This document shows positions 576 to 12,006 of a DNA stretch of 64,000 nt, piece by piece. Below the pieces are notes generated by a model. It did no database searches, was not told where the DNA came from, and saw only the letters and a list, made by a program, of their open reading frames with translations. Origin of the DNA: a virus; IMG/VR virus record IMGVR_UViG_3300025732_000023, positions 34,732-98,731 of that record; one strand, 5' to 3'. Both the position numbers and the translations under genes were made by a program. Position 1 is the first letter of the stretch; every line of letters begins with the position of its first letter.

Positions 576-1088
576 TCAAATCCAATCAGGTTTACGTTGG
601 GGCATACGAAGGTAATTATCCTTCACCCAAGTTTTAGAAGCAATGTACCTTTTGTATGCAGTAAAGGTGTCAATGCTGTCATCAAATTTCCACTCTTCGG
701 GCATTGCCCTAGCAAACGGAGTCACATCAGTAATCTTCCCCTTTGGAAAAAGATAATAAGCATCTACAAGTGTTTTATAACACGAGTGAGTTTTATTATA
801 CCGCAGGCAGTATTCATCTGACAAGTTCAATCCCCACTTGATTAACCAGTAGGCATTATGGATACTTTCCAGTGCCCACTTGGTGCAGGGATGATTGCGG
901 AATGCTCCTTTCTCGGTCTTGTAGGGGGTTCCATCTGCCTTAGGGAGAGTGCCATAGTTATGACCCCACTTCTCAGATGCCACAATAGAAAGCATTTGAC
1001 AGCATTCCAGAGGCATCTTGACGATGTGTTTGTCAGGAAGACAAATAGCACTCTCAGCAGGCCAAGGAGAAGTTACGAAGATGTTCAT
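576..1088 (-). CDS. Conserved phage protein, possibly pyrimidine-dimer DNA glycosylase-like
   Basis: The 170-residue protein starts MNIFVTSPWPAESA and continues with DKHIVKMPLECCQML, RNHPCTKWALES and EEWKFDD. This layout (a short N-terminal strand, an invariant-looking DKHxVKMxLE helix, then HPCxxWA) matches phage and bacterial proteins often labelled pyrimidine dimer DNA glycosylase. Similarity to T4 DenV itself is weak, so the enzymatic role is an inference. Its ATG overlaps the gp45-side neighbour: the gp45 stop codon lies at its start (ATGA). A DNA-repair role would fit its place among replication genes. Alternatively it is an uncharacterised DNA-binding protein. Confidence 0.6.
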   Translation of the reverse strand: MNIFVTSPWPAESAICLPDKHIVKMPLECCQMLSIVASEKWGHNYGTLPKADGTPYKTEKGAFRNHPCTKWALESIHNAYWLIKWGLNLSDEYCLRYNKTHSCYKTLVDAYYLFPKGKITDVTPFARAMPEEWKFDDSIDTFTAYKRYIASKTWVKDNYLRMPQRKPDWI

Positions 1089-1771
1089 CCAAAGGTAGAA
1101 TCAGGTTCCAGAGCAATATAATACTTCAGATTGTACTTGGTGTTGGTGAACTGTGATAAAAGTTTAGAAGACACAACCACGTCATATGCACCAGGAATGA
1201 TCTTGATATTTTCTACCTTGAAGTTGAAGGTAAACTCATCATCAGTCTCACCAACTACAATCGCATACTCATTAGAGGTATCATTCTTCTTATCACGAAC
1301 CACCAGTTTGATCACACCATTCTCACCAACAGCAGACAAGTCAGGAAGTTGATAAACTGCTGCTGCCTTAACCAGTTTTTCAAGAGAAGTGCTGTCCAGT
1401 TGGAAACAAACATCTGCCGAAGGAAGTTGAATCTCCTTATCGGGAGGTGAAATAATCACATTAGGATCAGCATAAAAATACTTCACTCGACGCTTACCCT
1501 CTTTGATACTGAGATAAGACTGCTCAGTAAAATCAAGGTCAGGATCTTGGTGCAAACCAAGACCATTCAGAAACTGGTTCAGATCATAAATGGCGAAGTC
1601 ACGAGGAAACTCTTCCGTAATGTCTGCTTCTGCAAGAATATTCTTTGCAACAGAAATAGTGCGAAGTTTGTTACCCTCTTTCACAAGAATAGAATTATTG
1701 ATTCCCGCAAAGTTTTTGAGAATAACAAGGGTATTGTCAGAAAGTTTCATAGTTTTATCTTGGATTTTCAT
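1085..1771 (-). CDS. 45: Sliding clamp gp45
   Basis: This is the trimeric DNA polymerase processivity factor. In T4 it also activates late transcription with gp55 and gp33. Length is 228 residues, the same as T4 gp45. Recognisable segments are MKLSDNTLVILKNFAGIN, FAIYDLNQFLNGLG and the C-terminal ALEPDSTFG, which match T4 MKLSKDT, VAIYDLNGFLG and VALEADST. I chose the ATG at 1771, two bases after the preceding TGA. The ATG at 1750 would give exactly the T4-like start MKLSDN and cannot be excluded; neither has a strong Shine-Dalgarno site. A TTG just upstream is not needed. Confidence 0.95.
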   Translation of the reverse strand: MKIQDKTMKLSDNTLVILKNFAGINNSILVKEGNKLRTISVAKNILAEADITEEFPRDFAIYDLNQFLNGLGLHQDPDLDFTEQSYLSIKEGKRRVKYFYADPNVIISPPDKEIQLPSADVCFQLDSTSLEKLVKAAAVYQLPDLSAVGENGVIKLVVRDKKNDTSNEYAIVVGETDDEFTFNFKVENIKIIPGAYDVVVSSKLLSQFTNTKYNLKYYIALEPDSTFG

Positions 1772-1773
1772 AA

Positions 1774-2283
1774 TCAATAAGGATAGTTGTTAGAATTATT
1801 CTTGTGCAGACCAGCAAAGTGATAAAGAAGAACACAATAGTGGATTGCTTTCAGAATGTCCATCTTAGATTTACCATTCTTCTTACCAAAGCGCGAGAGA
1901 TATTTGATAGCATTTGAACGAGTAAATGCTTCTGCATCACCAATACTCTCAATCAAATCAAGAGTTTGAGTTTTAGATTGTTCAGAAGTGTAATGAGAAT
2001 GATAAGTACTTGAAAGGTATTCTTCTACTGCTTTCAGAGTTTTATCTTCTTCATATTTCCAGAAACCGTTTTTGTTCGTGTCTTCGGGCATTTTCAAATC
2101 AAAAGTAATAGTATCAGGTGAGTGATTTCCAAAATAAGAGAATGGAACAGACTGTGCTGCGTAAATAAAATCTTGGGCACCACTAAAAGAAATAGTATCA
2201 GATCCTTCACCACCATAGATTACAGTATCTTTCCAAGAATCTGGAAGTGAATTTTCGTAAGTGCTCTCAAAGTTTTCTGACAT
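1774..2283 (-). CDS. DUF3310-like protein (nucleotide kinase-like family name)
   Basis: The 169-residue protein has a C-terminal helical part (IESIGDAEAFTRSNAIKYL, then FGKKNGKSKMDILKAIHY) that matches the DUF3310 family of phages, in which the I..K(Y/I)..R...K....D..KA..Y pattern is typical. The N-terminal ~90 residues are acidic and unlike that domain. The family has no proven reaction, although it is often mislabelled nucleotide kinase. It lies directly upstream of gp45 and is separated from the cobS-like gene by a terminator, so it starts the clamp transcription unit. Confidence 0.65.
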   Translation of the reverse strand: MSENFESTYENSLPDSWKDTVIYGGEGSDTISFSGAQDFIYAAQSVPFSYFGNHSPDTITFDLKMPEDTNKNGFWKYEEDKTLKAVEEYLSSTYHSHYTSEQSKTQTLDLIESIGDAEAFTRSNAIKYLSRFGKKNGKSKMDILKAIHYCVLLYHFAGLHKNNSNNYPY

Positions 2284-2336: not shown

Positions 2337-3440
2337 TCAGTTTGCCTGCTGTTCGTCAACAGGAAGTTGGAAATCAACATCAACCTTGTCGTACAGTTCA
2401 AGAAATCCTTGCTTGCTTACATCATCAAAACGATTAATGCACACTTGAATTGCTTTTGCCTTGTCACCAAAGATGCTATAAGCACGAATGATGTGAACCA
2501 GGCGGCGAGTGCTGATGATTTCCTCAATACCACCATCGTAGAAGGTCTTGCGGATGATATCTGCCCAGTCCACCAGGCGCTTGCAGAAATCACGGTCTTC
2601 TACGCCAAGATCCAGAGCGATGCCTTCCAGGATCTTCTGCTCGGTCGCAGGGGCGGGATAGGACTGTTCAAAGGTCACAGGGAATCGTTCCAGGAATGCC
2701 TCATTGAGCACATTGGTGCCGATGAAGCGACCGTCATCAGAACCCTTACCTTTGGTGTTAGCGGTGGCAATCACATTGAAACCAGCAGCAGGTTTCACAA
2801 AGCGACCAATCTTTTTAAGGAACACACCCTTACCTTCCAGAATAGATTGAAGGCACAGGATCTTGTTGGAAGCAAGGTCAATCTCATCCAGCAGCAACAC
2901 GGCACCACGTTCAAGTGCTTCCACCACAGGACCATTGTGCCACACGGTTTCGCCATTCACCAGACGGAAACCACCGATCAGGTCATCTTCATCGGTTTCA
3001 ATGGTGATGTTTACACGAATAAGTTCGCGTTTGAGTTGAGCACACGCTTGCTCCACAGAGAACGTTTTACCGTTACCCGAAAGACCCGTAATGAACGCAG
3101 GATAAAAGATACGGGACTGAATAATTTTTTTAATATCGTTAAAGTTACCAAACTTGACGAAGGTATCATCTTTGTCAGGAATAAGATTTTGTTCAGTGGC
3201 AGGAAGAACGGCAGGTGCTTGGAAAGAACGCTCAATCTCATCAACACGTTGTTGAGTCACTTCCAAATTCCAACGACCACGTGAGGTTTTATAGTTTTCA
3301 AGGCGACGAGTTACAGTTTGATAGTTCAGAGAACGAGAAGCACAAAATCCTTTCAGATCTCCAGCAGTGATTTCAGATCCGTAAAGTTCTTTGATGCTTT
3401 CAATAAGTTGTTGATCGTTCACGGAAGACTTGCGAGGCAT
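2337..3440 (-). CDS. cobS: CobS-like AAA+ ATPase (MoxR-type)
   Basis: The 367-residue protein is the AAA+ ATPase known in cyanophages as CobS, after the ATPase subunit of aerobic cobaltochelatase. Visible motifs are Walker A GLSGNGKT (119-126), Walker B VLLLDEID (181-188), sensor-1 ATANT (225-229) and an ERFP arginine-finger region (251-254). Residues 1-75 form a helical extension resembling the CobS N-terminal domain. The next gene upstream encodes a VWA protein, the usual partner of CobS/MoxR ATPases. No CobN chelatase subunit is visible, so cobalt insertion by the phage alone is unproven. The gene is flanked by two terminators, so it is probably its own transcription unit. Its GC content looks higher than that of its neighbours. 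Confidence 0.85.
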   Translation of the reverse strand: MPRKSSVNDQQLIESIKELYGSEITAGDLKGFCASRSLNYQTVTRRLENYKTSRGRWNLEVTQQRVDEIERSFQAPAVLPATEQNLIPDKDDTFVKFGNFNDIKKIIQSRIFYPAFITGLSGNGKTFSVEQACAQLKRELIRVNITIETDEDDLIGGFRLVNGETVWHNGPVVEALERGAVLLLDEIDLASNKILCLQSILEGKGVFLKKIGRFVKPAAGFNVIATANTKGKGSDDGRFIGTNVLNEAFLERFPVTFEQSYPAPATEQKILEGIALDLGVEDRDFCKRLVDWADIIRKTFYDGGIEEIISTRRLVHIIRAYSIFGDKAKAIQVCINRFDDVSKQGFLELYDKVDVDFQLPVDEQQAN

Positions 3441-3472
3441 GATGTAGTTAGGTTGTTTGTTTCAACAAAGTA

Positions 3473-3478
3473 ATTATA
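3473..3478 (-). promoter_or_regulatory. Putative -10 element for cobS-like gene
   Basis: The minus strand reads TTGTATAATTAC just after the terminator T-run and 33 bases before the cobS-like ATG. TATAAT is a perfect -10, but no good -35 is seen at 16-18 bases. The same TTGTATAAT after a terminator occurs before the partner gene. Confidence 0.5.
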
Positions 3479-3487
3479 CAAGCAAAA

Positions 3488-3505
3488 GGGGGGTAAAAAC
3501 CCCCC
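3488..3505 (-). terminator. Intrinsic terminator after zincin-VWA gene
   Basis: On the minus strand GGGGGG-TTTTTA-CCCCCC is followed by TTTTGC. The six-G/six-C stem is perfect. It lies 23 bases after the stop codon of the VWA gene and just before the cobS-like promoter region. Confidence 0.85.
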
Positions 3506-3519
3506 AATGTGCCAGTTTG
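3506..3519 (-). repeat. Pre-terminator element, copy 1
   Basis: The minus-strand sequence CAAACTGGCACATT abuts the 5' side of the terminator hairpin. An identical 14-base copy abuts another terminator at 5729-5742. It lies in the 3' untranslated region of the VWA gene. Confidence 0.7.
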
Positions 3520-3528
3520 AAAATTGGA

Positions 3529-5673
3529 TCAGGCAACCAACTCCACAAATTCCCCAAGAATTTTTTTGTTCATCTTTTTGGACTTCAAACTCTTAACAAA
3601 AGCAGATTTGATTTGTGCTTTGGTTGCACATTCGTGTACATCAAATTCACTGTCCTGAGCAAGGGCGCTAGCAGAAAGACCGAAGTAAGAATGATACCCA
3701 GACTTCTTAATAGTGAATGCTTTCTCTTTTTTCCAAGAACTCATTGTCTTTTCATAATCAGGTCCAAAGAATCCACAGTAACGACGAATGAAAGAACCAG
3801 CATCACGTGATTCAAGAACACGAATACCAATGAAGTTAATATCAGCAAACCTATCCCGAAGATTGCGAAGCAGAATGTCAGTAAACTCGTGATAATCACA
3901 ATCACAAGAATAAGTCATACCAGTCTTACGATCACGAATGAATGCATTAGGACCGATATGTGACGTGCCCATAAAAGGTTCTTCCTCCCAGCGACGCTGA
4001 ACTTCACGGTGATATTTGAGCATAGATCCTTCACCATCACTCAATACAACACACTGAACTTTTTGAAGTTTGTTTTCACTCTGAAACTTTGGAAGAATCT
4101 GATGAAGAGAAATCATTGCCTCATTCAAAGGAGTGCCAGAAAGACTCATTCCAAGAGGAGCAGAATAACGTACATATGAATTATATCGGAAGGATGCTGC
4201 AAGGCGAAAGATATTTTTCATTTGAATATCCAACGTCTTACCATTCACTTTACTAGTAATCAGATTCATCATAGAGAACCATTCACCAACTTGAACAAGA
4301 CCATCACGCTTTTTGTAGGAGAGTTCACGAAGGTTTGCTTTGCCTTCTGCATCATAACTTACAAGAGGATAATCGGTAGTGAAAGCATAAACTTCAAAAG
4401 GAATAGAAACTTTTTTGCAGAACCAAACAAGATTGAAAAGTTGCTTAACAGTATCCACCATTACATTACCCATTGAACCAGACCAGTCCAGCACAAACAC
4501 CAGACCGTGATTCTTACCATCAGCAAGTGTAGTTACTTTGCTGAAGATATCTTCATTGTACTTATAAGTATGCAGTTTAGAGCAATCCAAAACACCAGTG
4601 CGAGAAGTTGAGGCACGTGCATAAGAATCTGCTGCCTTCCGACACTCAAACTCTTTCACTAGATAGTTGACTTCTTTTTGAGCAGAACGCTTGAACTCAG
4701 CAAACTTCTTATCAACCTCACCAAAAATATCATTTTCAGAGTATTCATTTTTTTCAAGGTAGTTGCCCCACTCCAAAAGACACTTTTGATGAATCTCCGA
4801 GTTAGGAACAATAATCTTATTCAGATCAACCTGAGGAAGTTCAAGATAAACATTCTCATAACCGTCATTATTGACTAGATCTTTAAGTGCCTCTTCAAGA
4901 TTATCCATCGTCTTAACTTCAGGTTCTTCATCTTTCTCAGAACCCTGAGAAGTAGATTGCTTCTCCTGCCCAGTTTCGCTAGACGTAGGAGATTCGGAAG
5001 TTTCATCCTGAGGTTGGTCATTCTCACCCTCTTGCTGATCTGAAAAATCAGAGGCAGGTTGTTGACTTGCACCAGAATCCTGCGATTCCAGATTGTCCAT
5101 CGGAGTCTTGGTTTCTTCCTCTTGCTTATGCTTACAATACTTATAAAGTGCTTCTGCAGCAATCAGAACATCGGCAAAGGTTTCGGTTTCTGCAATCAGG
5201 TTGATAATCTCAGTCTCTTCACCACGCTCAATAGGCACATCAACATAGTTACCAACCTTGAACCACAGGTTTGCACGGTCGGCAAGATTATAAGTATCCA
5301 GATTATCATCCTTGATTTGGAAGAAATCCTCATCAGCAAGTTCTTTGTATCCGTTATAGAAGGTCTTGGCAAGACCAGCATAACGACGTTTCATTAGTTT
5401 CTCAATGCGAGCATCCTCCACCACATTCACAAACTGTGGAGGAATCTTGTGTTCCTTCAACCAATCTTCATCAGGTGTATAAAGAGCGTGTCCGACTTCG
5501 TGACCCACCAGAAGATCATAAACAGTTCCACTTGCACGTTCCCATAGAGGAAGAGTCAGAACACGAGTATGAACATTGAAACAAGCAGTCTCCACCTTCT
5601 TATGCTCAACCACAAGATCTTCTGTGGCAAGAAGTTTAGCAAGTTGGGACTTGATTTCGTGGCGAACGGTCAT
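3529..5673 (-). CDS. CobT-like protein: zincin motif plus VWA domain
   Basis: The 714-residue protein has an N-terminal zincin-like signature, HEVGH at 58-62, followed by a glutamate helix (VVEDARIEKLM, about 84-96). A long acidic, Ser/Gln/Glu-rich linker covers roughly 195-265. A C-terminal VWA domain carries the MIDAS motif DWSGS near 396, SGTPL near 515 and LSDGEG near 543. This order resembles CobT-type and CoxE/NorD-like partners of MoxR ATPases, and the CobS-like ATPase is encoded next door. Whether HEVGH is proteolytic or structural cannot be told. The gene has its own -10 element and its own terminator. Cyanophage homologues are sometimes called peptidase. Confidence 0.8.
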   Translation of the reverse strand: MTVRHEIKSQLAKLLATEDLVVEHKKVETACFNVHTRVLTLPLWERASGTVYDLLVGHEVGHALYTPDEDWLKEHKIPPQFVNVVEDARIEKLMKRRYAGLAKTFYNGYKELADEDFFQIKDDNLDTYNLADRANLWFKVGNYVDVPIERGEETEIINLIAETETFADVLIAAEALYKYCKHKQEEETKTPMDNLESQDSGASQQPASDFSDQQEGENDQPQDETSESPTSSETGQEKQSTSQGSEKDEEPEVKTMDNLEEALKDLVNNDGYENVYLELPQVDLNKIIVPNSEIHQKCLLEWGNYLEKNEYSENDIFGEVDKKFAEFKRSAQKEVNYLVKEFECRKAADSYARASTSRTGVLDCSKLHTYKYNEDIFSKVTTLADGKNHGLVFVLDWSGSMGNVMVDTVKQLFNLVWFCKKVSIPFEVYAFTTDYPLVSYDAEGKANLRELSYKKRDGLVQVGEWFSMMNLITSKVNGKTLDIQMKNIFRLAASFRYNSYVRYSAPLGMSLSGTPLNEAMISLHQILPKFQSENKLQKVQCVVLSDGEGSMLKYHREVQRRWEEEPFMGTSHIGPNAFIRDRKTGMTYSCDCDYHEFTDILLRNLRDRFADINFIGIRVLESRDAGSFIRRYCGFFGPDYEKTMSSWKKEKAFTIKKSGYHSYFGLSASALAQDSEFDVHECATKAQIKSAFVKSLKSKKMNKKILGEFVELVA

Positions 5674-5695: not shown

Positions 5696-5701
5696 ATTAT
5701 A
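5696..5701 (-). promoter_or_regulatory. Putative -10 element for zincin-VWA gene
   Basis: The minus strand reads TTGTATAATGG directly after the preceding terminator T-run, 23 bases before the ATG at 5673. The -10 is perfect and the -35 is poor. The arrangement is the same as before the cobS-like gene. Confidence 0.5.
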
Positions 5702-5708
5702 CAAAAAA

Positions 5709-5728
5709 AGGAGGTCAGAAGACCTCCT
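5709..5728 (-). terminator. Intrinsic terminator after 223-aa gene
   Basis: On the minus strand AGGAGGTC-TTCT-GACCTCCT is followed by seven T. The 8-bp stem and tetraloop are perfect. It lies 23 bases after the stop at 5752. Confidence 0.9.
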
Positions 5729-5742
5729 AATGTGCCAGTTTG
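5729..5742 (-). repeat. Pre-terminator element, copy 2
   Basis: This is an exact second copy of CAAACTGGCACATT, again touching the 5' base of a terminator hairpin, after an unrelated gene. Confidence 0.7.
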
Positions 5743-5751
5743 GGAAGTGGG

Positions 5752-6423
5752 TCAGACTCCCTTTAAACGAATTCCAGTGATCGGATCATAACCTGGTTTG
5801 TCACCTTTGTATGTGCCACCCGCATTTCCTGATCCTCCTTTATTCACAATCCCCTTTGCTCTCTGATAATCAGGAGATTCTAAATCTTTATCTTTTGGGA
5901 TTAATTGCTCAACAATACTTCCTTTCCACTCTTCACTCATATTTGCCATAATAGCAAGAGCTGCTTGATTGGTATCAGCGTAACCTTCGGCAACTAGGTA
6001 TTCTAGAATAACATCAAAAAGATCAGTTTCTACTTCTTCCTTTGCTTGTGCCTTGAACATCGCAGCAGCAGCAACTCTTTCACCTGCTTCCTTTGAACCA
6101 TACTGCTTTGCCGCTTTTTCTGCAACCTTTTCAAAACCTTTACCCGGTTTGCCGATATCTTTACCAGCACGTGCTTTCTTAGCAAGTGCAGAACGCTCCT
6201 CCGCAGAAGGCATTACTTTCTTACCAGTCCCGTGAGCAATTCTTTTTGCTTCGGTAACTTCTTCTTTCTTCTTTTCTTTCTTCTTACCATTCATTTCAGG
6301 AGTCTCTTTTTCAGTCTTCTCCTCATCCTCACACTCACAATCAGATTCAACAATGACTTCTTCTGGTTGAGCATAAACGGAAGCATACGCCTCCATCAGA
6401 TCTTTTACTAGTTTTGCTTCCAT
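5752..6423 (-). CDS. Lys/Glu-rich protein with EGY helical module, 223 aa
   Basis: Function is unknown. The N-terminus reads KDLMEAYASVY, a short motif also found at the start of the next upstream protein (SLQEAYNSIY). Residues 27-60 are highly acidic then basic (CECEDEE, KKKEKKKEE). Residues 60-130 are Lys/Ala-rich helix. Residues 133-173 form the helical module LVAEGYAD..A..IMANMSEEW that recurs in two other proteins of this window. The tail is Gly/Lys-rich. Charge and context near late-promoter-driven genes suggest a virion or prohead protein, which is an inference. A CTAAATA late-promoter-like site lies just upstream. Confidence 0.75.
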   Translation of the reverse strand: MEAKLVKDLMEAYASVYAQPEEVIVESDCECEDEEKTEKETPEMNGKKKEKKKEEVTEAKRIAHGTGKKVMPSAEERSALAKKARAGKDIGKPGKGFEKVAEKAAKQYGSKEAGERVAAAAMFKAQAKEEVETDLFDVILEYLVAEGYADTNQAALAIMANMSEEWKGSIVEQLIPKDKDLESPDYQRAKGIVNKGGSGNAGGTYKGDKPGYDPITGIRLKGV

Positions 6424-6443
6424 TTTACCAATAGTTTTTTAGT

Positions 6444-6450
6444 TATTTAG
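6444..6450 (-). promoter_or_regulatory. Candidate late promoter, CTAAATA type
   Basis: The minus-strand GCTAAATAAC lies 21-28 bases before the ATG at 6423, the usual distance for T4-like late promoters. It departs from NATAAATA at one base. Confidence 0.45.
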
Positions 6451-6453
6451 CAT

Positions 6454-8820
6454 TTAACCAATATCACCCTCTGTTGGGGCACCATATCTCCTCAACCAAA
6501 TCTTAGTACCAAGTTCTTTTGCTTTTGCAGGATCTGATACTCTCAATCTTTCATATTTTTGCAATTCTGGATCAATTGGTTTAGCAGCAGGTTTTACTGC
6601 TGGTTTGGCAGCGGCAGGTTTTACTGCTGGTTTGGCAGCGGCAGGTTTTACTGCTGGTTTGGCAGCGGCAGGTTTTGCCGCAGGTTTTGGAGAAACACCT
6701 GCTCTCCTCAGAATTTCGGGAGTAGGCATTGGATCATTTGGAACACCTTTATTAAGATCTCCACGAGCTCTGGCAGCAGTTAATGTGCCATCAGCAGTTG
6801 GTCTAGGTGCCATTACAGCAGCGGCAACTCCAAGTGGCGTAAGATTTCTAAGTGAAGCAAGTGTTCCAAGTCCTTGAAGAAGTTTAGATCCACCACCAGG
6901 CATTTGTGGTTTTACTGATGGTTTTGTGGAGGTTGATGGTTTTGGTGTCAACTTATCAACACCAGATGGTTTAGGAGCAGGTTTAGATGCTGGTTTTGTA
7001 CTTGGAAGTTCTCCCATTAAACCACCACCAGTCATTCTATTCAATCTCTGAACATCTTGGAACTGTTGAGATCTTACTGAAGTTGCAGGTTTTGCTGCCT
7101 GAGTTGCTGCTGTTGGTTTTGCAGCAGGAAGCAATCCACGAACATTGGTCTGTGACGGTCTTAATTGAGATTGTGGTTTAACTGCTTGTTGTACTCTACC
7201 CCACAAGTTTCTAGCACCAGAGACAGTATCAGAAACTTGCCTCCAAGGATCTGGAAGAATATTTCTAACACCTTGTGGCAATAAACCACGAGGATTCGAT
7301 CCAGATAATCTTGTTGAAGATGGCAATTCTCTAACAGTTACTGGTTGAATTCTTGTACTTACTGGTTTTCCAGTAAGTGGTTTAGCAGTAGGAGTTATAG
7401 CACCAGGTTTAGCAGTAGGAGTTATAGCACCACCAGGAGTAGCACGAGTTATAGCACCACCGCGAGCAGAACTAGACGAAGGTGGTAATGCTCCACGAAC
7501 ATTAGGACCAGAAGAACCAGTTAGTGCTCTTGTTGATGTGGTTGGTTTAGTGGATGATGGTTTAGTAATATCTTGAATTCTATTTCCTGTTGTTCCACCT
7601 CTCCAAGGATCTGGAGAAATGTTTGATCCCCTAGGAGAAGTTCTAATAGTTTGCGTAGATGTTCTAATAATTGGTGCTGGTGACTGTGCTCTTACATTTG
7701 GTGCCTTTACTGGTGCAGATGCAGATGGTGCAGACCCTGCTCCAATAGATGTTCCAAGAATATCAGATACTCCTGCTCTTAAAACATTTCTGGCAACTTG
7801 CCCAGCAGTAACTCCAGGTTTTCCAATTCCAGTTCTACTCTGAACTGCTCTAATAAAATCATTCCAAGCCGCTTCATTTACAAGTTCAACCATAATTTGG
7901 TTGCTCTGTTGCTCAGTATATCCCTCATCAAGAAGAATTTCTAGAACTTGATCATAGATATTAACTTCTTCTTTAACTGGTGATGATATTTTTGTCCAAT
8001 CAGTTTGTCGAATAGCATTACGATTTATAATTGGAATTGGAGGAGGAACAGGTCCACCTCTAAATGTAGGTCCAGGACCCATTGTTGTACCAAAGTCTCC
8101 TGGTTTAATTTCTGGTTTAGGTGTAGGAAGGGTAGTAGTAGAAGTTGGTGCAGTTGGTTTCACAACAGCAGTAGGTTCGGGAGTGCCACTCATCATTCTC
8201 TGAACTCTTTCCTGCCCTTCAATACCTGCTCTAAGTTTATCAGGGCCAAGAAGTCTCTTTGCTCTTGCACTCATTAATGCTTGTGCTTCTTTCGAAGGAC
8301 CTGCCATCGTTGCCTGAGCAGATGCCTTACGGAGATCATCAAGTTCTTGTTGAAATGACTTTTGAGGAGCGGCAGGAGGAGTAACAGTAGAAGAAGTGCT
8401 GCTAGGACTGGCAGTGGTTGTAGATGGTTGAGAAGTTACTGGCGTAACTGTTCTTTTACCAGATGCATCATATGATACATTTACAGGTTTTCCACCAAGA
8501 GTTGCTGGATATTGTTTACCAACTGTTACGGTTCCACCCTTACCACCAGCGGCAGCAACTGTTTGCGAACTAGTTGTAGTTGGTTTAGGTGATGTTTGAG
8601 TAGTAGTAGTAGCGGTAGTTGTTGTTTGTACTGGTTTTGGTTTAGGTGCTGTAGATGCCGCCTTCAATTCATCAGGAGTTGGTGTTGTTCTTCCATCGGT
8701 AGGATAAGTCAGTGTTCCATCAGGTTTTACCAAATACCGATTTCCACCAAATACGGTATATTGTTGCTCATAAATTGAATTATATGCTTCTTGTAAACTT
8801 TTATAATTTTTGTCGCTCAT
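6454..8820 (-). CDS. Low-complexity Pro/Thr/Lys/Ala-rich protein, 788 aa
   Basis: Function is unknown. The N-terminus SLQEAYNSIYE resembles the start of the 223-aa neighbour. Most of the chain is low complexity: Thr/Pro-rich early, Arg/Ser/Gly/Pro-rich in the middle, and an Ala-Lys-Pro-Val array near the C-terminus encoded by 27-bp tandem DNA repeats. One structured segment, about 286-327 (YDQVLEILLDEGY..Q..QIM), is a divergent copy of the EGY helical module. The C-terminus ends in a short charged segment (KAKELGTKIWLRRYG). A perfect GATAAATA late promoter 22 bases upstream predicts late expression, which suggests a virion-associated or assembly protein. Confidence 0.75.
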   Translation of the reverse strand: MSDKNYKSLQEAYNSIYEQQYTVFGGNRYLVKPDGTLTYPTDGRTTPTPDELKAASTAPKPKPVQTTTTATTTTQTSPKPTTTSSQTVAAAGGKGGTVTVGKQYPATLGGKPVNVSYDASGKRTVTPVTSQPSTTTASPSSTSSTVTPPAAPQKSFQQELDDLRKASAQATMAGPSKEAQALMSARAKRLLGPDKLRAGIEGQERVQRMMSGTPEPTAVVKPTAPTSTTTLPTPKPEIKPGDFGTTMGPGPTFRGGPVPPPIPIINRNAIRQTDWTKISSPVKEEVNIYDQVLEILLDEGYTEQQSNQIMVELVNEAAWNDFIRAVQSRTGIGKPGVTAGQVARNVLRAGVSDILGTSIGAGSAPSASAPVKAPNVRAQSPAPIIRTSTQTIRTSPRGSNISPDPWRGGTTGNRIQDITKPSSTKPTTSTRALTGSSGPNVRGALPPSSSSARGGAITRATPGGAITPTAKPGAITPTAKPLTGKPVSTRIQPVTVRELPSSTRLSGSNPRGLLPQGVRNILPDPWRQVSDTVSGARNLWGRVQQAVKPQSQLRPSQTNVRGLLPAAKPTAATQAAKPATSVRSQQFQDVQRLNRMTGGGLMGELPSTKPASKPAPKPSGVDKLTPKPSTSTKPSVKPQMPGGGSKLLQGLGTLASLRNLTPLGVAAAVMAPRPTADGTLTAARARGDLNKGVPNDPMPTPEILRRAGVSPKPAAKPAAAKPAVKPAAAKPAVKPAAAKPAVKPAAKPIDPELQKYERLRVSDPAKAKELGTKIWLRRYGAPTEGDIG
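6580..6687 (-). repeat. 27-bp tandem repeat array (about four copies)
   Basis: The unit encodes AAAKPAVKP. Copies starting at 6607 and 6634 are identical over 27 bases; those at 6580 and 6661 are diverged. The repeats keep the reading frame of the 788-aa gene. Confidence 0.9.
7379..7432 (-). repeat. 27-bp perfect tandem duplication
   Basis: Two identical 27-base copies encode PGAITPTAK-type units in the 788-aa gene, with a third degraded copy beyond 7432. The period is the same as in the 6580-6687 array but the sequence is different. Confidence 0.85.
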
Positions 8821-8836
8821 CTCTAAAAGACACTTT

Positions 8837-8983
8837 TTAGATATTTATCAAAAAAGAAGCGCCCCCATTTTGGAGACGCTTCTTGAGTGCTTGGCGACGT
8901 GCTTTTGCTTGTCGGAGTGCTTGCGGTTTTAGTTTTCGCTTTTGCTCCTTTTTTGAATGGTGGTAGCGATTTGGGACTTGCAT
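8837..8983 (-). CDS. Small very basic protein, 48 aa, coupled to gp46
   Basis: The frame starts MQVPNRYHHSKKEQKRKL and continues with Lys/Arg/Ala/Gln-rich helix (RQAKARRQALKKRL). Its ATG overlaps the gp46 stop by one base (TAATG), which suggests reinitiation after gp46. The last codons cover an intrinsic terminator and a late promoter, so the full-length reading frame may not be what is made. A nucleic-acid-binding role is only suggested by charge. Confidence 0.55.
   Translation of the reverse strand: MQVPNRYHHSKKEQKRKLKPQALRQAKARRQALKKRLQNGGASFLINI
8842..8849 (-). promoter_or_regulatory. Late promoter GATAAATA for the 788-aa gene
   Basis: The minus-strand GATAAATA matches the T4-like cyanophage late motif NATAAATA and lies 22-29 bases before the ATG at 8820. 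It follows directly on the terminator of the gp46 unit. Confidence 0.75.
8856..8882 (-). terminator. Intrinsic terminator of the gp47-gp46 unit
   Basis: On the minus strand GAAGCG...CGCTTC forms the outer stem with further C-G pairs inside, followed by TTTTTTGA. It lies inside the 3' end of the 48-aa frame. Confidence 0.85.
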
Positions 8984-10710
8984 TAGTCTTGTGCTTGTGG
9001 AGACATCATACGAGAAAAACCTTTGACTTTTTCAAACCTTATGACACTTTCAAATTTGTCATGCAGGTCTGACTTATGAGAGATCACAAAGATATTAGCA
9101 TCTTTAATCACATAACGGATAATCTTCAAGAACTCATCAGTGCCGAAACCATCAAGTGAAGAATCAAATACCTCATCCATAATCAGCAGATTGGTATTAA
9201 CGGAGTTTTTGACTCGGGCGACTTCTCTCCAAGTGAAGAGAAGGGCAAGGTCGATTCTCATTTTTTCACCCTCACTGAATGAACTATATGAAAAGTCTTC
9301 GTGAATGGGTGACTTTACCGTTTCGTTAAATTCTTCATCCAGATTGAAATTAATATAAAAATCCATCATCTGAAGGTAACGATTCACCTGCTGATTTATG
9401 AACGGAAGATACTTCTTAATTATCTTCGTTTTAACGCCATCGTCCTTGAGTAAGGAATAGGCAAAATCGTAATAAACGATTTCTTCTTTTTTCTTTGCTA
9501 ATTCTTCAAATGTTTTTTGGAGATTGGAGCGAAATTCTTCTAACTTCTCATGCTCAGTATTTCGGTTTGCAAGGTTTTGGGTAATTGTTTGAATTTCATT
9601 TTCAAGATCTCGGATTTGTCGCTGGTTAAGTGATATCCGAGTATTGTTTTGAGAAATCTCATGATTGAGTTTCGTAATCTCCTTGGAAAGTGCGTTGAAT
9701 TGACGCTCTCGTTCCTGTTCGAACTTTATTGTTTGTTCAAGTTCTTCATAACCATCTTTAAGTTCCTTTGCTTTATTTTGAGCGTCGGTAATTCTATTTA
9801 ACCGAAACTCTTCTTCGATAGTTTGGGTACATGTAGGGCATACCGTATTTTCAGTAAAAAACTTATGCTCTTTGGTAATTGCAGATACTTTCTGGGAGAT
9901 TTTACCTTTTAGATTGTTTAGTTTTACTAACTTATCACCAGCACCAATAACTTCTTCTTGTTCTTTTGTGAACTTAAAAATCTTTTCTTCTGTTTTAGAA
10001 TTTTCAGCAATATAAACACCAACCTCAGAATCTAATTTGGTAATCTTTTCCTTATTAGAATTAATATTGGCATTACCACGATTTTCCAGTTCTTCGATGA
10101 AGTCTTCCTGCATCTTCATCTTGTCCTTAATATTATCCTTCCTCAAATCAAGAGATTTGACCTGCTCCCTTTTTTCCCGAAGTTTATCCTTTACAAGGTT
10201 ATTCATTGCAGAGAATACACGAATATCCAAAAGATCTTCGATCACCTCACGACGATTCGATGTCGTAAGTTGCATAAATGGAACAAAAGTACTACTACCC
10301 AGAATTACAATCTGAGTAAAGGATTTGTAATTAAGTTTGAGAATACTTTCTTCAAGGATACGCTGCATCGCACGATCATCTGCTTCACGATGCATTGGAG
10401 TTCCATTTACAACTATATCAAATACTGATGGTTTGATACCACGTCGAATAAGATACTGACGAGTATTAATTGCAAACTCAACTTCAACAACACATTCTCT
10501 TTCATTAGTTGTGTTAACAAGTTGGGGTTTATTAATTTTCCTGAATGGTTTATTAAACAGAACAAAAGTCAAAGCATCCAGAATAGTGGACTTACCAGCT
10601 CCGTTTGTTCCAATAATAAGATTTGTGTGATTACTTTGGAAGTCAACTTCTGTAAAACTGTTTCCAGTTGAAAGAAAATTACGCCAACGGATCTTTTGAA
10701 AGGTTATCAT
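8983..10710 (-). CDS. 46: Recombination endonuclease subunit gp46 (Rad50/SbcC-like)
   Basis: This is the ATPase subunit of the gp46-gp47 exonuclease complex that resects DNA ends for recombination-dependent replication and host DNA breakdown. Visible parts are Walker A GTNGAGKST (34-42), long coiled coils around a zinc-hook CPTC (Cys291, Cys294), the ABC signature SFSEGEKMR near 483 and Walker B LLIMDEVFD near 513. The 575-residue length is close to T4 gp46 (560). Its start lies inside the 3' end of the DUF3110 gene, overlapping by 32 bases. Confidence 0.95.
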   Translation of the reverse strand: MITFQKIRWRNFLSTGNSFTEVDFQSNHTNLIIGTNGAGKSTILDALTFVLFNKPFRKINKPQLVNTTNERECVVEVEFAINTRQYLIRRGIKPSVFDIVVNGTPMHREADDRAMQRILEESILKLNYKSFTQIVILGSSTFVPFMQLTTSNRREVIEDLLDIRVFSAMNNLVKDKLREKREQVKSLDLRKDNIKDKMKMQEDFIEELENRGNANINSNKEKITKLDSEVGVYIAENSKTEEKIFKFTKEQEEVIGAGDKLVKLNNLKGKISQKVSAITKEHKFFTENTVCPTCTQTIEEEFRLNRITDAQNKAKELKDGYEELEQTIKFEQERERQFNALSKEITKLNHEISQNNTRISLNQRQIRDLENEIQTITQNLANRNTEHEKLEEFRSNLQKTFEELAKKKEEIVYYDFAYSLLKDDGVKTKIIKKYLPFINQQVNRYLQMMDFYINFNLDEEFNETVKSPIHEDFSYSSFSEGEKMRIDLALLFTWREVARVKNSVNTNLLIMDEVFDSSLDGFGTDEFLKIIRYVIKDANIFVISHKSDLHDKFESVIRFEKVKGFSRMMSPQAQD

Positions 10711-10966
10711 TCAGTTTAGGGGGAATAACAATATCGTTTGCTGTAACGACGGCATATTTGTAATTATACCTCTTACAGGTCATTATTGCAAGGGCATCAT
10801 CAACCTCTACAACATCCATTTCAGTATCTTCCTGATCTTCAAGCATCAAAGCATAACGAACGGCATCATCTTCTTCTTCAAAGAGGAAAAGAACCTTTTC
10901 CCCATATCTGTTTTGAACAGCGTATGCCCCGTCTTCTTTTTGATCTTTAAGAGTCAGAAGAAACAT
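10679..10966 (-). CDS. DUF3110 protein, 95 aa
   Basis: The sequence pattern VLFLFEEEDDAVRYALMLEDQ matches DUF3110, a small domain common in cyanobacteria and cyanophages. The fold appears alpha/beta and ferredoxin-like, and the function is unknown. It sits between gp47 and gp46, with its ATG overlapping the gp47 stop (TAATG) and its tail overlapping gp46. It is therefore translated as part of the nuclease operon and may have been taken from a host. Confidence 0.8.
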   Translation of the reverse strand: MFLLTLKDQKEDGAYAVQNRYGEKVLFLFEEEDDAVRYALMLEDQEDTEMDVVEVDDALAIMTCKRYNYKYAVVTANDIVIPPKLNDNLSKDPLA

Positions 10967-12006
10967 TACTCAACCTCGCAAGCTTGTGAGTATATCTTTT
11001 GTAAAATACCTTTGATGATTGATTTATCACAATCAATTTCAGATTCATCAATATATCTATTCAAAATAGAAATTGTATTTTCAGACTCTTCAACTTCAAA
11101 ATCTTCATCAATATGTATTTCAAAATTCTCTACGATTTTGAGTTCTTGAATTCCAGATGAATAAAGTTTATCAATGAATTTTTCAAACTTCTTAGGATCA
11201 GATTTCTTCTTTACAATGACCTTTACAATTTTTCCAACATACTCACGAGTATCAAATGTTTGATATGGAGTATCTTCATAGTAAACATTGTAGAAAAGTT
11301 TATATGGGTTATTGATCGGTTCAAATCCTAATGTTTCTGTGTCAAAGATATGAAATCCGCGAGTATCATTCACATCGTTCCAGAACATCTCATAGGGATT
11401 TCCTAGATAGTAGATTTTCCCGTTGTTCGATCGAGTGTGATAGTGTCCCGAGAAGACAAGTTCGAACTTCTCAAATAGTTCGCTTTCCATACCGTCTTCC
11501 ATGACGTGCCCGCGATGAGCTCTAAATCCGTTGAGTTCAAGGTGCCCCATCGCACACTTGCAAGATGTATTTTGAATAGATTTGAAAGTAGTCTCCTCAT
11601 TTTCTTGATTAATCCATGGAACAAAAAGTACTTTTAATTTATCTAACTTAACTTCTTCTACCTCAGAATAGATTTTGATATTATCATATTCTTTGAGAAG
11701 GAGACCTACTGAATTGACTGAGTTTGTATTCTTATAGTATGCTGTGTGGTTCCCAACAATCGTGTGAACAGTCACACCCAATTGTTGAAGGCGATCATAA
11801 TAGTTCTCTTTTGCCCATTCAAGTGCCCAAAGATCAATTGATCTACGGTTATCAAAAGTATCTCCCATATCGACAACAGTTTTGATATTGTTCTCTTCCA
11901 GATATGGAAAGAAAACGGTATCATAAAACTTTTTAAAATAGTCGTGGAGAAACTTGGACGATTTCCTAGCACCAAAATGCTGATCTGTAATGATCGCAAC
12001 CTTCAT
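10966..12006 (-). CDS. 47: Recombination endonuclease subunit gp47 (Mre11/SbcD-like)
   Basis: This is the metallophosphoesterase nuclease partner of gp46. Metal-binding motifs are in order: ITDQH (Asp8, His10), VDMGDTFDN (Asp49), IVGNHTAYY (Asn86, His87), then AMGHLE and FSGHYHT. The 346 residues compare with 339 in T4. The start overlaps the gp55 stop (ATGA), so gp55, gp47, DUF3110 and gp46 form one transcription unit. Confidence 0.95.
   Translation of the reverse strand: MKVAIITDQHFGARKSSKFLHDYFKKFYDTVFFPYLEENNIKTVVDMGDTFDNRRSIDLWALEWAKENYYDRLQQLGVTVHTIVGNHTAYYKNTNSVNSVGLLLKEYDNIKIYSEVEEVKLDKLKVLFVPWINQENEETTFKSIQNTSCKCAMGHLELNGFRAHRGHVMEDGMESELFEKFELVFSGHYHTRSNNGKIYYLGNPYEMFWNDVNDTRGFHIFDTETLGFEPINNPYKLFYNVYYEDTPYQTFDTREYVGKIVKVIVKKKSDPKKFEKFIDKLYSSGIQELKIVENFEIHIDEDFEVEESENTISILNRYIDESEIDCDKSIIKGILQKIYSQACEVE

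Follow-up and report, generated by a model that had tools for sequence, protein, structure and literature searches.

The window analysed here, a 64,000-nt stretch of viral DNA, carries two adjacent genes on the minus strand. The original prediction described an AAA+ protein with the Walker A motif GLSGNGKT beside a 714-aa protein, and both open reading frames are indeed present. The features of the locus, together with the neighbouring genes that supply its context, are as follows.

1085..1777, minus strand: gp45 sliding clamp gene, downstream context (PF09116, phrog_223)
2337..3440, minus strand: CobS-like AAA_5 (MoxR/CbbQ-NorQ type) ATPase, 367 aa (Pfam, PHROGs)
3063..3086, minus strand: Walker A GLSGNGKT, residues 119-126 (G119, G122, G124, K125 and T126 invariant)
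3198..3440, minus strand: residues 1-81 of the AAA protein, a variable N-terminal domain (no invariant column)
3473..3518, minus strand: control cassette preceding the AAA gene, matching that at 5696..5741 (same 37-nt spacing)
3529..5673, minus strand: CobT-like zincin-VWA protein, 714 aa (phrog_459 'peptidase', E 1.9e-266, PHROGs)
4474..4488, minus strand: VWA MIDAS motif DWSGS, residues 396-400 (T514 and D546 also belong to the MIDAS)
4909..5106, minus strand: disordered polar/acidic linker, residues 190-255 (composition, pLDDT)
5107..5673, minus strand: N-terminal zincin-like domain, residues 1-189 (AlphaFold mean pLDDT 89.9)
5401..5427, minus strand: NVVEDARIE, residues 83-91, glutamate helix, E86 the predicted third ligand (invariant residues)
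5488..5502, minus strand: HEVGH, residues 58-62, H58 and H62 predicted zinc ligands and E59 predicted catalytic (motif conservation)
5696..5741, minus strand: control cassette preceding the zincin-VWA gene (AAACTGGCACAT, terminator-like hairpin, TATAAT)
8983-10710, minus strand: gp46, recombination nuclease gene, upstream context
10966-12006, minus strand: gp47, recombination nuclease gene, upstream context (phrog_77 and phrog_100 for gp46 and gp47, PHROGs)

The ATPase and its VWA partner

The AAA gene encodes an AAA_5/CbbQ-type ATPase with intact Walker motifs. The protein matches PF07728 (E 2.4e-18) and CbbQ_C, PF08406 (23.5 bits, above the cut-off of 20.6), in Pfam and phrog_249 (E 2.6e-136) in PHROGs; a Walker B-like VLLLDE and an STRR motif are also present, and the AAA core is strongly conserved across 25 diverse relatives. 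Residues 1-81 are another matter: not one column is invariant among 20 sequences, and searches of Pfam and the PDB gave no convincing match, nor any support for reading this domain as a helix-turn-helix. A special kinship to Midasin was likewise rejected, the high summed score being the product of repeated AAA domains, none above 39 bits, whereas the match to CobS gathers 83 bits within one stretch.

The 714-aa partner has no Pfam match above cut-off (CobT, PF06213, reaches 11.6 bits against 26.1), and its family assignment therefore rests on PHROGs, profiles and structure. The AlphaFold model (mean pLDDT 79) has a low-confidence stretch, with pLDDT below 50, across residues 190-247. This falls within the long linker that had been described as acidic, a description that holds in so far as residues 190-255 contain 18 D/E versus 3 K/R, but the many S, T, Q and N make the segment also simply polar. 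The MIDAS is complete, with D396, S398, S400, T514 and D546 all invariant in a 40-sequence alignment. The HEVGH motif, the VVEDARIE helix and the MIDAS, all named in the original prediction, are present, and their key residues are invariant in 40 relatives. The alignment reaches down to 27% identity and keeps 38 of its 714 columns invariant, the key motif residues among them; the zincin and MIDAS motifs are therefore not chance occurrences.

A Foldseek search with the full-length model detects the VWA part only, and its best PDB fold match is the VWA domain of NorD in NorQD (E 1.6e-6). Taken with the CbbQ_C match and a near-exceptionless co-occurrence of the two genes, this bears out the description of the locus as a MoxR/NorQ-type AAA plus VWA pair. 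The CbbQ/NorQ-type ATPase and the NorD-like VWA fold would also suit a role in metalloprotein maturation, in which, like NorQD or CoxDE, the pair would load or strip metal or switch on a host metalloenzyme, and the head would deliver metal and not act as a protease. We regard this as improbable: the NorD of the control locus carries no HExxH, the predicted catalytic glutamate E59 is invariant yet needless for a simple metal-carrier, and no metalloenzyme gene recurs near the pair in 40 loci.

The N-terminal domain and the cobaltochelatase question

The N-terminal domain, modelled by AlphaFold with high confidence, is predicted to comprise strands at residues 21-25, 31-33 and 38-42, a helix (49-65) bearing the HExxH and a second helix (79-97) bearing the glutamate; an HExxH helix and then a Glu-bearing helix is the arrangement of a gluzincin. 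Residues H58, E59, H62, N83, E86, D87 and R89 are invariant across 40 diverse aligned relatives, and HExxH plus NxxED occur in every relative in which the N-terminus is present (131 scored automatically and one, L108, by eye). The top 12 PDB folds found by Foldseek are all drawn from the minigluzincins jannalysin, abylysin and selecase, together with ArdC and PprI/IrrE, though the matches are weak (best E 0.14); the best sequence match of the domain profile is projannalysin (E 0.05). By predicted fold and motif, the head of the partner is probably of zinc-protease type. The zincin motif singled out by the original prediction is therefore real and conserved, and the domain is predicted to be gluzincin-like; but Pseudomonas ZY21, Stenotrophomonas BUCTxx99 and an Acinetobacter plasmid, three lineages related to it, have lost the histidines, so the pair can exist without a zincin active site.

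None of the 28 bona fide cellular CobT sequences aligned has the HExxH; in these, the glutamate of the downstream helix alone is kept and the HEVGH position reads A/S/Q-x-A/S-x-R/K, which is non-metal-binding. Direct profile comparison of the cyanophage domain with cellular CobT gave no link (probability 5%); the connection is seen only through SSU5-like or IncC-like sequences (profile steps of E 6.6e-10 and 4.3e-9). Alignment of HEVGH with non-metal-binding CobT residues, combined with failure of the pair to interact or co-occur, had been named beforehand as grounds for abandoning the original reading. The first is what we find, while the pair does co-occur; and the alignment leaves the reading standing, since all these residues survive in the phage branch and it is the cobaltochelatase branch that lost them.

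The B12 explanation is made doubtful by this retention of a full zinc-protease-type site that is gone from the true B12 enzyme subunit. As put forward by Liu et al. 2021 (PMC8651126), phage CobST would hijack the CobN of the host, whose usual partners are ChlI/ChlD, and so raise cobalamin during infection, for instance for a B12-dependent ribonucleotide reductase. Distant homology to CobS and CobT speaks for the proposal, as does the distribution of the subunits in genomes of the cyanobacterial host order, of which 149 of 150 have CobN and none of the 150 has CobT; since these hosts own CobN, its help is conceivable for cyanophages. The sequence marks of a CobNST enzyme looked for here are missing from the phage pair, though. 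The AAA protein scores 71.2 of the 558.6 bits needed for the NCBIfam CobS model (TIGR01650), the partner does not match the CobT model (TIGR01651), the N-terminal domain is not HExxH-less, and no CobN accompanies the pair in five phage records carrying it, as the original prediction had noted for the DNA in view. Across phage records as a whole, CobN was found in 2 of 50,697. Related pairs, moreover, reside on E. coli IncC plasmids and SSU5-like phage-plasmids, although CobN was undetected in the E. coli control genome, and the window pair sits in a block of DNA genes. We consider the cobaltochelatase helper unlikely.

Pairing, gene neighbourhood and control elements

In the proposed survey of co-occurrence the genes are paired in 75 of 80 loci, the remaining five being cut by contig ends. 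In L133 the AAA gene lies elsewhere in the same record. The pair, a MoxR-type AAA gene linked to a VWA gene with a complete MIDAS, is thus near-universal within the family and does without phage CobN. A Staphylococcus phage with the AAA gene yielded no VWA, and the PcfJ-like gp55 near that gene was dismissed as a candidate for the CobT partner. Two viral scans returned no relatives, and PADLOC matched the window pair to no defence system.

Upstream of the pair lie gp46 (38 of 40 loci) and gp47 (36 of 40), and downstream lies gp45 (35 of 40), such that the block gp47-gp46-pair-gp45 is kept in most of the 40 loci. The gp46 and gp47 genes are context and stand outside the machine proposed below. 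Most related pairs also adjoin replication or recombination genes, their neighbours including DNA ligase, DNA polymerase, primase, helicase, ssb-bet-exo and YqaJ. The earlier suggestion of a host metalloprotein or chelatase as target finds no support here; the neighbourhood points to replication and recombination, albeit as weak evidence, because replication modules hold early and middle genes of any function.

Each gene is preceded by a control cassette. Cassettes resembling the AAACTGGCACAT-hairpin-TATAAT arrangement of the zincin-VWA gene are present in many relatives, and 66 of 71 have a TATAAT ahead of the AAA gene. Upstream of neither gene is there a late promoter motif, these terminator/-10 cassettes occupying the position instead; our literature search found no expression timing for cobS or cobT. 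This bears on a further explanation, in which ring and protease head would act as a chaperone-protease that assembles and trims structural proteins of the virion (proposed by Iyer et al. 2021, PMC7824862, on the model of p618/p892 of Acidianus two-tailed virus). The metallopeptidase head joined to a MoxR-vWA architecture fits such a role, for which the published Acidianus virus precedent exists, there without a peptidase. Against it stand the missing late promoter motif, the gene order shared with replication and recombination genes, the presence of related pairs on conjugative IncC plasmids, which make no virions, and the absence of the pair from the S-CREM2 virion proteome, although a chaperone need not be packaged. 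Virion assembly, too, strikes us as rather unlikely.

A putative remodelling machine and its known relatives

The locus joins an ATPase and a VWA protein with invariant active-site and MIDAS residues, near-obligately paired and placed among replication and recombination genes. On balance we favour a single AAA+/VWA remodelling machine as the product of the two genes, bearing a minigluzincin-type, zinc-peptidase-like head; its ring formation, docking, zinc and proteolysis are what we infer. The CobS-like ATPase would form a ring on which the CobT-like partner docks through its VWA MIDAS site; the flexible linker would carry the N-terminal head, with H58, H62 and E86 as ligands and E59 in the role of catalytic base. 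Strain driven by ATP would then be exerted on a protein complex bound by the machine, exposing protein for the head to cut or clamp. As the likeliest class of target we tentatively suggest proteins sitting on the DNA of phage or host, or complexes of replication, recombination or late transcription, rather than cobalt insertion. More speculative, and in our estimation doubtful, is the fuller idea of an ATP-driven, MIDAS-docked metalloprotease of mobile elements that remodels and cuts DNA-bound proteins in replication or recombination, with CobT a derived relative whose protease site was lost. The elements named for this metalloprotease reading are T4-like cyanophages, phage-plasmids, IncC plasmids and haloarchaeal viruses.

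The cobS gene belongs to the cyanomyovirus core, serves as a community marker and is commonly listed among B12 auxiliary metabolic genes. Should the pair be a protein-remodelling protease and not a cobaltochelatase, a metabolic claim that is widely repeated would be wrong, and the protease reading would extend to the relatives on IncC plasmids. One of the most widespread phage machines would then become testable through a single residue, E59, plus a MIDAS residue.

The architecture has been described before. In group 2.2 jumbo phages, Iyer et al. 2021 (PMC7824862) found a MoxR-vWA pair with an N-terminal metallopeptidase and read it as a virion-assembly system; by architecture the window pair is the same, a MoxR AAA+ gene beside a VWA gene fused to an N-terminal metallopeptidase, but it is tied to CobS/CobT annotations, plasmid relatives and a DNA-metabolism neighbourhood. 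Liu et al. 2021 (PMC8651126) placed the same genes, cobST, in the cyanophage core and already noted that cyanophage cobT is misannotated as a peptidase; the HExxH site, which phages keep intact and cellular CobT lacks, is not taken up in the part of that paper considered here. New here are the invariant zincin residues set against their loss in CobT, the predicted N-terminal fold, the pairing without phage CobN, and the locus context with its cassettes.

With the aerobic cobaltochelatase CobNST the pair shares an AAA_5 ATPase, a VWA partner and distant homology of the N-terminal domain, but it lacks a phage CobN, falls far under the CobS and CobT cut-offs and retains the zincin motif. NorQ-NorD, CbbQ-CbbO and RavA-ViaA, as MoxR-VWA systems, resemble it in ATPase type and VWA fold; they differ in that the NorD control has no zincin motif and in that their substrates are metalloenzymes. 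The minigluzincins, ArdC and PprI/IrrE resemble the head in predicted fold and in HExxH plus downstream glutamate, whereas they are unfused to VWA and the match is remote. Finally, the AAA-DUF3150-VWA cluster of IncC plasmids has a related AAA and a related zincin (HEAAH...NVLEDCRIE), and differs by its additional DUF3150 gene and its ssb-bet-exo flanks.

The zincin signature and its absence from cellular CobT

The source virus record spans 98.7 kb, of which the window is part. Two genes and two control cassettes are of interest:

3529-5673, minus: zincin-VWA protein, 714 aa, first of the two genes
2337-3440, minus: AAA+ protein, 367 aa, after the 714-aa gene
5696-5741, minus: cassette of AAACTGGCACAT, terminator-like hairpin and TATAAT, upstream of the zincin-VWA gene
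3473-3518, minus: cassette of AAACTGGCACAT, terminator-like hairpin and TATAAT, upstream of the AAA gene

Every residue named in the original prediction – that of a MoxR/VWA-type machine bearing an HEVGH zincin motif – was found in the window proteins. H58, E59, H62, N83, E86, D87 and R89 are invariant across 40 diverse relatives, as are the MIDAS residues D396, S398, S400, T514 and D546; moreover, HExxH and NxxED occur in all relatives with the N-terminus present (131 scored, plus one further sequence, L108, judged by eye).

A critical issue is whether HEVGH aligns with CobT residues that bind no metal. True CobT was sampled from Alphaproteobacteria with TIGR01651 (33 of 58 genomes above cut-off, 28 sequences aligned). 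HExxH is kept in none of the 28: the two His positions hold A/S/Q/G and K/R/Q/Y, another residue stands in place of the catalytic Glu, and only the Glu matching E86 is retained, in every one. The challenge to the motif thus holds for cellular CobT, where the histidines and catalytic Glu are absent, and fails for the phage relatives, which keep the motif in full. Homology between the cyanophage N-terminal domain and cellular CobT is supported by stepwise profile links, through SSU5-like phages (cyanophage to SSU5-like, E 6.6e-10; SSU5-like to CobT, E 4.3e-9) and through IncC-type proteins (E 9.6e-14 and 7.6e-9, respectively); the direct comparison is weak (probability 5%, spanning the Glu helix only). 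On the simplest reading of these sequences the zincin site would have been lost in the cobaltochelatase line, a direction of change that we infer. Three mobile-element lineages are without the histidines as well.

In the AlphaFold model of the 714-aa partner (mean pLDDT 79), a linker that is disordered from about 190 to 247 joins the N-terminal domain to a C-terminal VWA domain. The top solved match of the whole model is the NorQ-bound NorD VWA domain (E 1.6e-6). Modelled alone (pLDDT 89.9), the N-domain has three strands, a helix carrying HExxH (49-65) and a glutamate helix (79-97). Its closest solved folds – jannalysin, abylysin, selecase, ArdC and PprI, with weak E-values of at least 0.14 – are all metallopeptidase-type proteins, and projannalysin is also the top sequence match of its profile (E 0.05). 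Among predicted viral structures it matches many CobT- or VWFA-annotated proteins, including those of haloarchaeal viruses.

The AAA protein, a member of phrog_249, exceeds the cut-offs for both AAA_5 and CbbQ_C. The CobS model of cobaltochelatase gives it only 71 bits of a required 558. Among solved structures it matches CobS (E 2e-22) and NorQ (3e-14). Midasin was rejected as top kin: its larger total score is a sum over many repeats. The ATPase core is strongly conserved and the N-terminus variable. A published phylogeny assigns the MoxR of cyanophage S-CREM1 to the CGN subfamily (PMC9964418). In Staphylococcus phage 812 (Kayvirus), an AAA protein of the phrog_249 type has the Walker A variant GAGSGKN (L086:5941-6822); no VWA protein was found in that genome.

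Pairing, neighbourhood and expression

In GenBank phages, with matches spanning at least 80% of protein length and the two lists compared as totals, the VWA protein occurs in 458 records and the AAA protein in 460, with equal counts by name for Synechococcus (365), 'Cyanophage' (61) and Prochlorococcus (24). The AAA gene follows the VWA gene within 3.3 kb in 75 of 80 IMG/VR loci, and the remaining five stop within 700 nt; in one related locus (L133) it sits elsewhere in the same record. S-CREM2, said to be without cobS (PMC10665884), carries a clear orthologue annotated as a MoxR-like ATPase, adjoining a CobT-like 'ribosome assembly protein' (L082:4998-8252).

Among 40 loci with enough flank, gp46 (38) and gp47 (36) lie upstream of the pair and gp45 (35) downstream; the window block is alike, with uvsY, uvsW and gp55 in addition. 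Elsewhere the pair adjoins DNA ligase and DNA polymerase; helicase, primase and recombinase; DNA polymerase and primase/helicase; or ssb-bet-exo or a YqaJ recombinase. In one Gordonia lineage all neighbours are hypothetical. Variable genes occupy the intervals that separate gp46, the VWA gene and the AAA gene (window 5752-8820; a related locus, L065:4555-7659); their proteins begin with an L-x-E-A-Y-like motif, and the cargo varies among close relatives. A cluster of AAA, DUF3150 and zincin-VWA genes, of which DUF3150 may be a third component, recurs on IncC plasmids, a Rhodanobacter plasmid and two bacterial contigs:

L202:882-8875
L203:3241-7680
L166:5337-9521
L167:3326-7054

Both cassettes share an identical 37-nt spacing to TATAAT, and AAACTGGCACAT has no further exact match in the window. 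Many related phages carry similar cassettes; of 71 relatives, 66 have TATAAT ahead of the AAA gene. Neither gene has the T4-type late motif ATAAATA directly upstream, the closest upstream copy lying at 8842; all 14 copies in the window lie on the coding strand, and several of them precede a gene by a short distance. These signals point modestly to early or middle expression, and only modestly because the ATAAATA total is below, not above, chance. ORF55 and ORF56, the S-CREM2 pair, are missing from that phage's list of 52 virion proteins.

CobN and the cobalamin question

Two unrelated proteins bear the name CobS. Where cyanophage cobS is said to catalyse the last step towards cobalamin, or is called a cobalamin synthetase (PMC2984593, PMC9983427), the two seem to have been mixed up. 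Liu et al. (2021, PMC8651126) place the cobST of tailed viruses in the cyanophage core, call cobT misannotated as a peptidase and suggest hijacking of CobN. Such a helper role is possible for cyanophages, since genomes of the host order own CobN (above cut-off in 149 of 150; CobT in 0 of 150). None of five tested phage records carries CobN, and a search of 50,697 phage records gave it in just 2, neither of them from a cyanophage. The record of Pseudomonas phage Y13 (OQ572414.1, 16277-19999) includes a CobN-like gene of full length, which may be host DNA. Against the helper role, however, stand related pairs on SSU5-like phage-plasmids and many IncC plasmids, an E. coli control genome that gives no CobN match, and Marinobacterium sedimentorum, whose intact zincin-VWA/AAA pair comes with no CobN match. 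Plasmid records of every kind in which the VWA protein is matched over 80% of the query number 930.

A probable remodelling machine with an additional head

On balance, we regard the pair as more likely than not a remodelling machine of the AAA+/VWA type, whose head is probably a protease, and not mainly a cobaltochelatase. That it acts in DNA transactions is a tentative proposal, less certain than the machine itself. This kind of pair is already known, because PMC8651126, PMC7824862 and PMC7911831 describe such pairs: Iyer et al. (2021, PMC7824862) reported a MoxR-vWA pair in phages, with a metallopeptidase at the N-terminus of the VWA protein, proposing a part in virion assembly, and the related pair of halovirus Hardycor1 has been described as chaperone-like (PMC7911831). 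New here are the finding that zincin sites are intact in phages and degenerate in cellular CobT, the assignment of a fold, the relatives on IncC plasmids and chromosomes, the conserved surroundings of DNA-metabolism genes and the paired control cassettes.

NorQD, CobST and Midasin are established models for AAA/VWA action. By analogy with them, the VWA partner, docked through its MIDAS, would hold a substrate on which the AAA ring exerts strain. In the phage pair this partner carries an additional head with a complete zinc-peptidase signature.
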